64,000 bases of DNA from Thioalkalivibrio sp. ALJ7 (GTDB taxonomy: Bacteria; Pseudomonadota; Gammaproteobacteria; Ectothiorhodospirales; Ectothiorhodospiraceae): contig NZ_AQXQ01000005.1 in assembly GCF_000376865.1 (NCBI RefSeq), forward strand, positions 1-64,000, given 5' to 3'. The translations under genes and the position numbers were made by a program. Below are positions 8,015-32,438 of this stretch, piece by piece. Below the pieces are notes generated by a model. It did no database searches and was not told where the DNA came from. It was given only the letters and a program-made list of their open reading frames with translations. Numbering within the stretch: position 1 is the stretch's first letter; every line of letters begins with the position of its first letter.

Positions 8015-8107
8015 AAGGTGTCATGAACGGGGCCCGTGTCTCCGGCGCAGGAGATTGGTAGACTTCGCGGCTGTTTTGGTCGGAATGGATGCCCCTGGCG
8101 CCACGGA

Positions 8108-9136
8108 ATGAGCGAACCCACCGTAACCAGCCCGTTGAAGGTGACGTATTGCCGAGACGATTCTCCGGAATCGGCTACGGCATCCGTGGTCATACGGTTT
8201 GGGGCGGCCAGTGGTGTCGAGTGCCTACCCGAGCGGATAGAGATTCAAGTTGGGTTGCAGCCGTTGGGGCGTGATACCGATTGGTTGGAATGCTGGTCAC
8301 TACCGCACGGGGCCGCTTGCGATACGGGGGAGATCGGTGCGCTGACCTACCTCCGAAGCGGGGGGTGCCTGATTGGATGTTGGTTTCATGCCCTGGATGC
8401 CACGACCGACCCCGAACCTCTGACCGAGCGCGCCTACCAAGAGATTCTGGCAGGTTGCCAGGCGTTGGGCTTCGAGCACCTGGTGCGGGTCTGGAACTAC
8501 TTTCCCGCGATCAATGAACCGGTCGCCGAACAGGAACGGTATCGAGGATTCTGCAGCGGCCGTGCACGGGTGTTCGAGTCTCTACCGGAGTACGAACGAA
8601 ATCTCCCAGCGGCGACCGCCATCGGTACGCATGCCGACGGTCTGCTGATTTACTTCATTGCCACTCAGGAGGCGGCGGCTCGCATCGAGAACCCGCGCCA
8701 GGTGAGCGCCTACCGCTATCCGCGACAGTATGGTCCGCGCAGCCCGTCATTCGCGCGTGCCAGCCTATGGCAGTCGGGTCCCGAGTCGGCCGAACTGTTC
8801 ATCTCGGGCACGGCGAGTATCGTAGGACATGAGAGCCGTCATGCTGGCGATCTAGAGGCGCAGATTGATGAGAGTCTGCGCAATATCGGGGTGCTGTTGG
8901 AGGAGGCTGCGACGCACCATCCTGTCGGCGTCGAAGGGCCGAAAGCGCTCTCGATGCTCAAGGTTTATCTGCGTCATGCCAAAGATGCGCCTGCCGCCGA
9001 GCGCCACCTGCGTACCCGTCTCGGTGATGACGTACCGTGCCTGTTGTTACATGGCGATATCTGCCGAGAAGAATTGCTGGTCGAGATCGAGGGCCTTTAC
9101 TCCGAGCATCGTCCGGAACCACTGGCGTCGCCCTGA
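8108..9136 (+). CDS. Chorismatase (XanB2/Hyg5/FkbO family)
   Basis: A 342-residue protein that looks like the chorismatase fold. Recognised stretches are VWNYFPAIN, RYRGFCSGRA, the AYRYPRQYGPRSPSFARA loop, FISGTASIVGHES and the C-terminal DICREELLVEIEG. Members remove pyruvate from chorismate, giving 3-hydroxybenzoate (Hyg5 type), 3- and 4-hydroxybenzoate (XanB2), or a dihydroxy-cyclohexadiene (FkbO type). Here Cys319 lies 7 residues before Glu326, the spacing I recall for the Hyg5 active-site Cys/Glu pair, which favours 3-hydroxybenzoate. The next gene is a methyltransferase. In Xanthomonas XanB2 feeds xanthomonadin pigment and ubiquinone; either role is possible. The start at 8108 has a weak ribosome-binding site. 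Confidence 0.8.
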   Translation: MSEPTVTSPLKVTYCRDDSPESATASVVIRFGAASGVECLPERIEIQVGLQPLGRDTDWLECWSLPHGAACDTGEIGALTYLRSGGCLIGCWFHALDATTDPEPLTERAYQEILAGCQALGFEHLVRVWNYFPAINEPVAEQERYRGFCSGRARVFESLPEYERNLPAATAIGTHADGLLIYFIATQEAAARIENPRQVSAYRYPRQYGPRSPSFARASLWQSGPESAELFISGTASIVGHESRHAGDLEAQIDESLRNIGVLLEEAATHHPVGVEGPKALSMLKVYLRHAKDAPAAERHLRTRLGDDVPCLLLHGDICREELLVEIEGLYSEHRPEPLASP

Positions 9137-9227
9137 AGCGCCGCAGTCCCCTCAAACATTGATGTCGGATGGGTTGTGCGCGCCGCTGGGGCCGCAATAA
9201 CCGGTCCCAAGCCTGGGAGCATATGGA

Positions 9228-9974
9228 ATGCCGCAATCGACGAAGAAACCACATCCGGTCCTGAAGGATTACTACGGGGACGAGGAGAGTCGTCGCGCGT
9301 ACGTCGACGACCTGTTCGACCGTACCGCGCCTTACTACGATCGAATCCTGCGCGTCGGTTTCTTTGGTACGGGGCAGGCCTACCGTCGCTTTGTGCTGAA
9401 GAAATCCGGGTTGAAGGCCGGGATGAAGGTGCTGGATGTAGCCACCGGGACCGGGCCGGTGGCGCAGGAGATCCGCAAGGTCGTCGGCGACGATCATCTG
9501 ACCTGTGTGGATCCCAGTCGCGGCATGATGGATATCGCCCGCACCAAGATGGATGCCACCTTCATCCAGAGTCTGGGCGAGCAAATGCCCTTGCCAGAAC
9601 GCGAATTCGACCGGCTATACATGGGCTACGGGCTGCGCCACGTGCGCGATCTGCACGAGTTGTTCAGCGAATACTTCCGGGTGTTGAAGCCCGGTGGTCG
9701 CTGCACGATCCTGGAAGTCTCGCGCCCACGGACCAAGCGCCAGTTTGCGCTCGCGCGTTTTTACTTTCGTGACTTTGTCCCGTTCGTAGGCAAGGTCCTG
9801 ACTCGAGATCCGGACGGGCACCTGCTGATGCGCTATTTCTGGGACACGATTGATCAGTGCGTGCCGCCGGAGGAGATCCAGGACACCCTGCGCGCGGTCG
9901 GCTTTGAGGATGTCCAGCGCGACGTCCAGCTCGGCGTGTTCAGCGCTTATACGGCCACACGCCCGGCCGAATGA
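9228..9974 (+). CDS. UbiE-like SAM-dependent methyltransferase
   Basis: A 248-residue class I methyltransferase. The SAM-binding motif I is VLDVATGTGPVAQ, followed by motif II around LTCVDPSRGMM and the LKPGGRCTILEVSRP strand. The layout (FDRTAPYYDRI near the N-terminus, then the Rossmann core) resembles UbiE/MenG quinone C-methyltransferases, but the UbiE-specific substrate motifs are not obvious, so it may act on another aromatic or polyketide compound. It lies 91 bases after the chorismatase gene on the same strand, with GGGAGC before its ATG. Its stop codon overlaps the start of a broken DUF167 gene. Confidence 0.75.
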   Translation: MPQSTKKPHPVLKDYYGDEESRRAYVDDLFDRTAPYYDRILRVGFFGTGQAYRRFVLKKSGLKAGMKVLDVATGTGPVAQEIRKVVGDDHLTCVDPSRGMMDIARTKMDATFIQSLGEQMPLPEREFDRLYMGYGLRHVRDLHELFSEYFRVLKPGGRCTILEVSRPRTKRQFALARFYFRDFVPFVGKVLTRDPDGHLLMRYFWDTIDQCVPPEEIQDTLRAVGFEDVQRDVQLGVFSAYTATRPAE

Positions 9975-30136: not shown

Positions 30137-30200
30137 CGCTTTCCGCGTCTGGTAGAAGAGCGCATAGTGTAACTCTGTGCGTACCTAAAAAGCCCCGCGC

Positions 30201-32438
30201 ATGCCCGAGAGCACCCAGACGACGGAAGGGACCGGCTCGCAGGTGGAACATTCCGCCCGCGTACGCACCGTAGAGCCTCTGATCAGCGGCCCGATGGTCG
30301 CCGCCCTGACCAGTGCGGTGCTGTTCGTTTTGTTATTCCTCGCGATTGATCTTGGCTGGAAGCAGCAACTCGCCGAACGCTATGAACAGACGGTCGCGTC
30401 CGAGGCCGCTAGTCTGCGCACTCGGCTGGAAAGTGTGCTTAACGCTTCGGTGCATTCCACCATTGGTCTGGCGGCATATGCCTATGTTCACCCGGACCTG
30501 ACCGAAGAAGATTTCGCGCGCGCTGCCGACCGCTTGTATCGTGACCAGCCAGACCTCTTTCGGTCTCTGACCCTGGCGCGGGGCGAGAAGCTGGCGCTGG
30601 TCTATCCGCGCGAAGGCAATGAAGGCGCGATTGGTCTGAACCTCGCACGACACCCGGAGCAGGGCGCCTCTTTCCAGCGAGTGCTGGACACCCGGAAGAC
30701 CGTTGTGGCGGGCCCCTGGTCGCTGGCACAGGGCGGAAAAGGACTGTTGGTGCGCGCCCCTGTGTTCACGGAAGCCCCGGAAGATACCCCCGTCACAGTG
30801 AATCCGTGGACGTTATCCAGCGTCGCACTGGATTTCGACACAGTGCTGGAGCAGGGGGGACTTTTGCCGCAACCAGAGGGCCTTCAACTCGCGTTGCGCG
30901 GACGCGATGGTCTGGGTACGAGTGGCGATATCTTCTACAACCCGGATGGAATTGACCCGGACGGCGTGTCCTTACAGCAAACGGTCAGTTTTGCGGGAGG
31001 GCAATGGGAGATGCTGATCCGCCCGTTACCCGAGCCGGAGGCGACCGCTCGACCGGCCGCCTGGTGGGTGATGGGGGTGATTGGGCTCCTTGCGGTCAGC
31101 GGCTACACGTATCGGGTGGGCCAGGGTATCCAACAGCGGCGTGTTGCTTTGTCTCGCTACCAGGCATTGGTCAACCGCTTGGAGGACGCCACCCTGGTGG
31201 TGACGGGGCAACGCATCCTATGGGCCAATCCGGCATTCACGCGTCTTACGAACCAAGCGCCGGAGCCCGGAAAGGCACTGGTCGATCTCGATTTCATCCA
31301 TGGCGATGACCGGGCGCGATTGCCGGAGGGGCTGGATTTTTCCAAAGCGCGTGAAGAGCCAAAGGGCCGCGAGATCCGCGTACGCACAGGTAGTGGGAAG
31401 GAACGTTTTCACCTGTTGCGTTGGGTTCCGATTGACTGGGAAGGCCAACAAGCGTTTCTGTTGAGCTTTGTGGATGTCCATGACAACCGCATGTTGTTCA
31501 ATGCCTTGAGTGAGTCTCGCGATCTTCAGGACGCCTTGTTCGAGGCGATGCCGGGCGACGCGCTCGTGATCGATGAGAATGGACTCGTGCGGCGGGCTTT
31601 CGGGGAGGCACGGCGGGGCGATGTGCCCGCACGCGATGCCGTAGGTCACCTGTTGGAGGAACTCCTGCCGCCGGAGGTCGCGAAACGATTTGCGGGGGTG
31701 GTCCGGGAGGCATTGCGCGAGGGTACATTGCAGGAAATTCAGTACCGACTGACCCCCTGTGGGTTCCATGGGGGCGAGCGGCAGGATGGCGGTGGGGAGA
31801 CCCGCTGGTACGAGGCTCGGGTGCGGCCGATCGATACGCCTTTTGAGGGCGCCGCGGCTGTGGTGTGGCACGCCCTGGATGTGACCGAGCGCAAGCATCT
31901 TGAGGAGCGGATGCAGGCGTTGGCCTGGGAGGACCCGTTAACGGGGACCGCCAACCGGGCCGCACTGGATCGAGCCTTCCCCCGTCTGGCCGCGCGAGCG
32001 GATCGTCAGGAGGCTCAGCTTGCCCTGCTGTTTATCGACCTGGATCGTTTCAAACCGGTGAATGATGACTACGGTCACGCGGTGGGTGATGAACTGTTGC
32101 GTCAGCTGGCGGAGCGGTTGACGGCCAGCCTGCGGTCGGATGATCTGCTGGTGCGTCTGGGTGGCGACGAGTTCATCGTGTTGAGTGCGCCGCTGCAACA
32201 TGCCGGCGAGGCTTCGATCCTGGTCGAGCGCATACAGGCCGCCTTTCAGCGGCCATTTGAGCTGCACCCTGGCCATATGGCACCGGTCGAGAAGAGCCTG
32301 TCCTGCAGCATCGGTGTCGCGTTCTATCCGGAGGGTGGCGCACGTTTGGCCGATCTGATGATGGCCGCTGACCACGCGATGTACCGGGCCAAGGCGGCAG
32401 GTCGCAACGACGTGGCCTTTGCCACGAACCCCGACTAG
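30201..32438 (+). CDS. Membrane diguanylate cyclase (CHASE-PAS-PAS-GGDEF)
   Basis: A 745-residue sensor. TM1 (about 33-52) and TM2 (about 290-308) enclose a periplasmic CHASE domain (PDLFRSLTLARGEKLALVYP, later VVAGPWSLAQGGKGLLVRAPVF). Two PAS-like regions follow (about 325-430 and 445-575), then a GGDEF domain. The active-site loop is intact (LGGDEF), and RSDD five residues before it is a product-inhibition I-site (RxxD). It should make c-di-GMP from GTP. The start has no clear ribosome-binding site. The last 4 bases overlap the end of convergent mnmC. Confidence 0.9.
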   Translation: MPESTQTTEGTGSQVEHSARVRTVEPLISGPMVAALTSAVLFVLLFLAIDLGWKQQLAERYEQTVASEAASLRTRLESVLNASVHSTIGLAAYAYVHPDLTEEDFARAADRLYRDQPDLFRSLTLARGEKLALVYPREGNEGAIGLNLARHPEQGASFQRVLDTRKTVVAGPWSLAQGGKGLLVRAPVFTEAPEDTPVTVNPWTLSSVALDFDTVLEQGGLLPQPEGLQLALRGRDGLGTSGDIFYNPDGIDPDGVSLQQTVSFAGGQWEMLIRPLPEPEATARPAAWWVMGVIGLLAVSGYTYRVGQGIQQRRVALSRYQALVNRLEDATLVVTGQRILWANPAFTRLTNQAPEPGKALVDLDFIHGDDRARLPEGLDFSKAREEPKGREIRVRTGSGKERFHLLRWVPIDWEGQQAFLLSFVDVHDNRMLFNALSESRDLQDALFEAMPGDALVIDENGLVRRAFGEARRGDVPARDAVGHLLEELLPPEVAKRFAGVVREALREGTLQEIQYRLTPCGFHGGERQDGGGETRWYEARVRPIDTPFEGAAAVVWHALDVTERKHLEERMQALAWEDPLTGTANRAALDRAFPRLAARADRQEAQLALLFIDLDRFKPVNDDYGHAVGDELLRQLAERLTASLRSDDLLVRLGGDEFIVLSAPLQHAGEASILVERIQAAFQRPFELHPGHMAPVEKSLSCSIGVAFYPEGGARLADLMMAADHAMYRAKAAGRNDVAFATNPD

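Follow-up and report, generated by a model that had tools for sequence, protein, structure and literature searches.

A chorismatase and methyltransferase gene pair in Thioalkalivibrio sp. ALJ7 that probably serves a xanthomonadin-type aryl-polyene pathway with its core cluster on another contig

Gene content of the locus

The window, a stretch of 64,000 nucleotides covering positions 1 to 64,000 of contig NZ_AQXQ01000005.1 of the soda-lake sulfur bacterium Thioalkalivibrio sp. ALJ7, contains a chorismatase gene (chA) followed on the same strand by a gene for a SAM methyltransferase (mt). The coordinates of these and of related features elsewhere in the genome are given in Table 1. The gene order is spoT (reverse strand), abh, chA, mt, a small DUF167-like frame and pyrC. 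The product of abh is an alpha/beta hydrolase according to a Pfam search, and from reading the sequences we take the other neighbours to be spoT, a DUF167-like frame and pyrC. The abh gene was considered as a further member of the module and was rejected, as it is found in 26 of 30 genomes of the genus, with or without chA.

Table 1. Features of the locus and of related sites in the same genome (G000).
Feature	Location	Strand	Remarks
chA, FkbO/Hyg5/XanB2-like chorismatase	window, 8108..9136	+	342 aa; ATG at 8108 within ORF 8036-9136
mt, UbiE/Coq5-fold SAM methyltransferase	window, 9228..9974	+	248 aa
GAGATTGGTAGACT, candidate promoter element	window, 8051..8064	+	kept with minor variation 5' of chA in the versutus group
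Ordinary FabG and FabF-like matches	window, 60.0-62.5 kb
Second chorismatase (B)	L003:9733-10677, G000:C9	-	39% identical to chA; adjoins mutM and an EAL/HDOD gene
Aryl-polyene, xanthomonadin-type cluster	G000:C12, about 537.3-549.2 kb		in order: halogenase (flavin), ACP, membrane protein, AMP ligase, ApeI-like dehydratase, LpxL-like acyltransferase, MMPL exporter, ketosynthase, second ketosynthase-like protein, ApeP-like dehydratase, FabG, glycosyltransferase
Flavin-dependent (Trp-type) halogenase inside the polyene cluster	L062:5267-6622, G000:C12	-

The initial annotation described chA as a chorismatase of the XanB2/Hyg5/FkbO kind, and this description stands. The protein scores 101.5 bits against PF21168 (FkbO_Hyg5-like_N; cut-off 27) and 229 bits against TIGR04444 (E = 7e-68), which is less than the curated cut-off of 325 bits; no protein in the 58 genomes searched with TIGR04444 exceeds that value. 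Its sequence matches among solved chains are solely 5ag3 (E = 6e-47), 5a3k and 4bps, the last being FkbO and the first two being entries that we take to be Hyg5. An AlphaFold model of chA from 19 sequences has a mean pLDDT of 90, and the top seven Foldseek matches to it are chains of the same three entries, with TM scores of 0.81-0.83. In its predicted fold chA thus resembles Hyg5 and FkbO, although the identity is only about 31% over the structural alignment.

The residues Cys319 and Glu326, singled out beforehand as active-site positions, align to Cys327 and Glu334 of Hyg5, the latter being the catalytic glutamate of chorismatases, and both are invariant across 19 aligned relatives. Gly234 of chA aligns to Hyg5 Gly240, whereas Hyg5 Gly173 is replaced by Ala171, which is itself invariant in the 19 aligned sequences. 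The signature of the Hyg5 subfamily (CH-II) is given in the cited part of PMC7170507 as Gly, Gly and Cys at Nat-hyg5 positions 164, 231 and 318, which we transferred to Hyg5 numbering by the offset of the catalytic glutamate. Two of these three residues (Gly234 and Cys319) are present in chA and the third, at Ala171, is not, so that chA lies outside the CH-II signature; the Hyg5-type assignment made earlier holds for Cys319, Glu326 and Gly234 and breaks down at the remaining position. Given this one departure, a XanB2-like mixture of 3- and 4-hydroxybenzoate would be an equally likely outcome. Section 21 of PMC3949708 states that the reaction of a chorismatase is not accurately predictable by alignment alone.

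The mt product had been said to resemble UbiE without clearly being UbiE, and the profile searches agree. It belongs to the UbiE/COQ5 family PF01209 in Pfam, but falls under both of the best curated UbiE/MenG cut-offs (142.3 against 158.35 bits for TIGR01934 and 147.8 against 216 bits for NF001244). The top fold match of its model (pLDDT 89) is yeast Coq5 (PDB entry 4obw). The mt family shares the sequence pattern HPxLKxYY ... MGYxLRHV.

Polyene cluster and quinone genes in the same genome

A search of the genome for ketosynthases with PF00109 gave two matches only, one of them partial, and the site on contig C12 proved to be an aryl-polyene cluster. Pfam was run on ten of its 12 genes and assigned a domain to nine, the membrane protein having none; the ApeP-like and FabG calls are based on similarity to proteins of G037, a genome from another family of the same class. 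The ape-type names in Table 1 are those that we presume to apply. No chorismatase and no methyltransferase of the mt family occur among the cluster genes, and the initial guess of a module split from the rest of its pathway therefore holds. The window for its part was said to contain no polyene synthase genes. A search with the 12 proteins of the G037 cluster is consistent with this: the four that matched did so at chA, at mt, at an ordinary FabG (44%) and at a FabF-like protein (30%), none of the places being a polyene cluster gene.

We considered whether the stretch upstream of chA is common to the polyene cluster. This was rejected, since GAGATTGGTAGACT has no match at three or fewer mismatches in the stretch around the C12 cluster (L062). 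An apparent dispersed repeat of this genome, recognized by the same short peptides YINQCFP and HKGTAT, occurs in L062 near 19976, in the joined L062/L063 near 30163-30406 and in L003 near 11929 and 13378; a six-frame translation of the window contains neither peptide.

The genome has no ubiC at E = 0.001, one UbiA above the cut-off (322 bits) and a true UbiE on contig C11, which at 263 bits is also above its cut-off. The second chorismatase, B, lies on contig C9.

Distribution within the genus

The survey comprised 58 genomes including that of the window. The family of Thioalkalivibrio accounts for 37 of these, 30 in the genus itself and seven in other genera. With thresholds of E <= 1e-40 for mt and E <= 1e-20 for the polyene ligase, mt was found in 15 of the 58 genomes (14 of the genus, and G037) and the ligase in 17, namely the 15 mt-positive genomes together with G019 and G048. 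All 14 mt-positive genomes of the genus have both the ligase and the cluster ketosynthase. The sole polyene-positive genome of the genus without mt is G019, which is 66% complete. The cluster ketosynthase was found at E = 1e-188 or better in the same 15 genomes of the genus as the ligase; in the other 15 no ketosynthase match is better than 1e-37, a level that FabF would be expected to give. The co-occurrence of mt with the polyene genes in the genus gives a Fisher probability of 1e-7 when kinship is ignored. On the species tree there are two changes each for the ligase, mt and chA, too few for a sign test to reach significance. In G029 the pair and the core cluster lie on one contig, about 617 kb apart.

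Outside the genus, G048 has the ligase with a chorismatase nearby and lacks mt at E = 1e-40, which implies that mt is dispensable in some such clusters. G007 and G013 have the cluster and mt and lack chA, which implies that another chorismatase can serve there. In these two genomes mt adjoins pyrC (L060:4624-5349 in G007 and L059:4532-5353 in G013), and the chorismatase was either gained later elsewhere or lost in these lineages.

A tree was built from abh and spoT for 26 genomes of the genus, 11 of which are placed by abh alone. In this tree G026 is sister to G023 (99/99) and is nested in a polyene-positive clade. It keeps spoT, abh and pyrC; chA, mt, the ligase, the cluster ketosynthase and the halogenase are all missing, and a search for the DUF167-like frame likewise gave nothing. 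The 253 bases between its abh and pyrC include a stretch that resembles the region upstream of chA in ALJ16, with a score of 36 (shuffles at most 34); the chA genes of ALJ16 and G023 are identical. The score with the upstream region of the window is 29 (shuffles at most 28), and the remaining five of the seven upstream regions compared do not rise above their shuffles. Such a remnant after abh weakly suggests loss of the genes in G026 and not their original absence. G026 offers a natural control in which the gene set is missing altogether.

The methyltransferase family

Relatives of mt were collected by scanning named genomes with the mt alignment, and the best 80 of 421 were analysed. Eleven of these are from Thioalkalivibrio, including T. 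versutus AL 2, T. thiocyanoxidans and T. halophilus; they duplicate genomes of the genus set and are not extra evidence. Cluster genes are found in none of these 11 loci in the stretch analysed, and chA is found in nine.

The other 69 loci fall into several groups. Sixteen contain five or more of the cluster gene types, with the ligase or the second ketosynthase among them, and in 14 of these 16, G037 included, a chorismatase is found in the same stretch. In another 26 a ketosynthase is accompanied by one or more other genes of cluster type; as these were counted without a background control, they may be explained in part by generic lipid genes. Five are intermediate between these groups and the 22 loci with no cluster-type gene in the stretch analysed, some of which are on short contigs, while ten of the stretches are longer than 20 kb. 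In G037 an equivalent cluster lies on one contig with the chorismatase, halogenase and methyltransferase genes adjacent, and its methyltransferase is 48% identical to mt. Judged by these gene neighbourhoods, the mt family is tied to aryl-polyene clusters, albeit not always visibly, which connects a set of 'UbiE-like' genes with aryl-polyene pigments and sets mt apart from UbiE and Coq5, its nearest relatives by fold and Pfam family. In Verrucomicrobiota (L094, L101, L103, L108, L111 and further loci), genes related to mt adjoin those for a ketosynthase, an ACP and an acyltransferase, which may point to polyene-like clusters in that phylum.

Proposed pathway

In our view chA and mt are, with high probability, the starter-unit and methylation genes of a xanthomonadin-type aryl-polyene pathway whose core cluster is that on C12. 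The basis for this is the gene content, the kept catalytic residues, the co-occurrence in the genus, the co-clustering elsewhere and the joint absence from one nested species. The initial proposal that the pair supplies and methylates the aromatic head of a pigment, here the yellow aryl polyene, is thereby strongly supported. We infer every chemical step of the scheme that follows, as well as the point at which methylation takes place, the choice between O- and C-methylation and the identity of the product.

ChA would remove pyruvate from chorismate to give a hydroxybenzoate, most likely 3-hydroxybenzoate, which the AMP ligase of the C12 cluster would load on the ACP encoded there. The ketosynthase pair, the FabG-like reductase and the ApeI- and ApeP-like dehydratases would then build the conjugated chain. 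The flavin halogenase of the cluster would chlorinate the aromatic head and mt would methylate it, and the acyltransferase and MMPL exporter would place the product in the envelope. Chorismatase B would most likely feed 4-hydroxybenzoate to ubiquinone.

Several observations count against this reading. The pair is unlinked to the core cluster, and a search near the latter for the stretch upstream of chA gave no match; G007 and G013 are polyene-positive without chA; G048 has cluster genes and a chorismatase without mt at E = 1e-40; and 22 of the 69 mt loci have no cluster-type gene. In addition, chA is not firmly grouped with any polyene-cluster clade, and each gene changes only twice on the tree.

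Alternative interpretations

In the chorismatase tree the copies from the genus fall in one of two clades, A (chA, 12 genomes) or B (25 of 30 genomes). The 12 genomes with two chorismatases are all from the genus. The A clade is sister to B weakly (92/92, not starred), so that chA may have arisen by duplication or by transfer. We also considered whether chA is clearly orthologous to the chorismatases of a single polyene-cluster clade, which this tree does not support.

One could suppose that B supplies the starter in all species, with chA as a spare copy and mt alone in the pathway. G007 and G013, which have the cluster and mt without chA, would be explained in this way. As far as mt is concerned, this explanation overlaps with the pigment pathway proposed above, and the probabilities that we attach to the separate readings do not sum to one. 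Against it, each of the 12 two-chorismatase genomes retains chA between abh and mt, in every case with an intact Cys and Glu motif, and elsewhere a chorismatase shares the stretch with mt in 14 of the 16 full clusters. We regard a spare chA as unlikely.

The initial annotation also offered a quinone head-group module, in which chA would stand in for UbiC and mt would act as a second UbiE. The absence of ubiC from this genome and from 35 of the 37 family genomes (it is present in two), the presence of UbiA and the Coq5 fold match of mt are all in keeping with such a module. A chorismatase is indeed present in all 29 family genomes that are at least 90% complete, but the distribution of the two copies points to B. 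Among the 23 genomes of the genus that are at least 90% complete, B is present in every one and ubiC is missing from 21; in these 21 ubiC-free genomes B is again always present, whereas chA is missing from nine. This comparison of chA with ubiC rests on the genus, because each of the seven genomes from other genera of the family has a single chorismatase outside both clades. Since B is present within the genus with or without the pigment genes, it is a better candidate than chA for a substitute of UbiC. The methyltransferase half fares no better, as a true UbiE is present above its cut-off on C11, mt is under the UbiE cut-offs and mt tracks the polyene genes and not the loss of ubiC. With a true UbiE in the genome and a second chorismatase in all of the well-assembled genomes of the genus, we rejected the quinone module as the main reading and consider it very improbable.

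Also very improbable, and the least probable of these readings, is a signalling role, in which chA would chiefly release hydroxybenzoate as a diffusible signal, as is said of XanB2 in Xanthomonas, and would feed the pigment only in second place. Such a role may overlap with the pigment pathway. It is prompted by the description of XanB2 as a diffusible factor synthase (PMC3949708, section 21, and titles of papers cited in the literature) and by the lack of linkage between chA and the cluster. Signalling alone does not predict the tie to mt and the polyene genes, including their joint absence from G026.

Comparison with known systems

The closest precedent for the proposed pigment pathway is arcuflavin, a xanthomonadin-like pigment of Azoarcus sp. 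BH72. According to the cited parts of PMC3949708, its genes lie in two unlinked loci, arcA-L and arcM-X, both of which are needed for the pigment; ArcB makes 3- and 4-HBA, arcuflavin carries a methionine-derived methyl group (sections 18, 21 and 22) and ArcT activates 3-HBA and not 3-methoxybenzoate, methylation therefore probably being later. The two systems share type II polyketide genes, an AMP ligase, a halogenase, a chorismatase (arcB), a methyltransferase (arcM, which we liken to mt by role and not by sequence comparison) and the division into separate loci. They differ in that the chorismatase and methyltransferase of Azoarcus are each within one of two large loci, whereas chA and mt alone form a small locus apart from an otherwise complete cluster.

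In Xanthomonas and Lysobacter the chorismatase XanB2 gives 3-HBA for xanthomonadin (cited parts of PMC3949708, PMC3691225 and PMC5069965). Section 7 of PMC3691225 reports that a Lysobacter chorismatase mutant loses about 90% of the pigment, which 3-HBA restores, and terms the methyltransferase of the pigment unknown. A single XanB2, compared here by description only, serves both pigment and ubiquinone in Xanthomonas, whereas two chorismatases are present here. The aryl-polyene head of Escherichia coli is likely to be methylated by the SAM methyltransferase ApeB, with 4-HBA from UbiC as the starter, according to the cited part of PMC8253772. ApeB and mt are both SAM methyltransferases with a likely or proposed action on the polyene head, and we liken them by role.

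Relation to natronochrome

The 2011 genome paper of strain K90mix (PMC3368412) states, in the part cited, that the natronochrome genes remain to be identified; K90mix is there said to make natronochrome, and the paper on the structure of the pigment has T. versutus ALJ 15 in its title. The initial annotation mentions natronochromes as methoxylated aryl polyenes reported from Thioalkalivibrio. Among the matches listed from open-licence papers, the parts available do not tie Thioalkalivibrio to an aryl-polyene cluster. The product of the proposed pathway is likely to be natronochrome or chloronatronochrome, an identity that rests on the genus. This names a candidate set of natronochrome genes at two places in the genome, a layout in which anyone looking for a single cluster would overlook two of the genes. 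The pathway is of a known kind and its split loci have a precedent in Azoarcus.

A wider proposal, to which we give an even chance, is that the two chorismatases divide the role of XanB2 in Xanthomonas, with B providing 4-hydroxybenzoate for ubiquinone and chA providing 3-hydroxybenzoate for natronochrome, that chA, mt and the C12 cluster together make up the natronochrome pathway, and that in many proteobacteria the mt family is the head-group methyltransferase still missing from the pathways of xanthomonadin-type pigments. If this is right, both the pathway and the division of supply between quinone and pigment are directly testable.

The halogenase is found in nine of the 30 genomes of the genus: seven of the group to which the window belongs, G019 and, as a 38% match, G012. 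Its restriction to some polyene-positive species agrees with the pigment being chlorinated in part of the species and not in the others.
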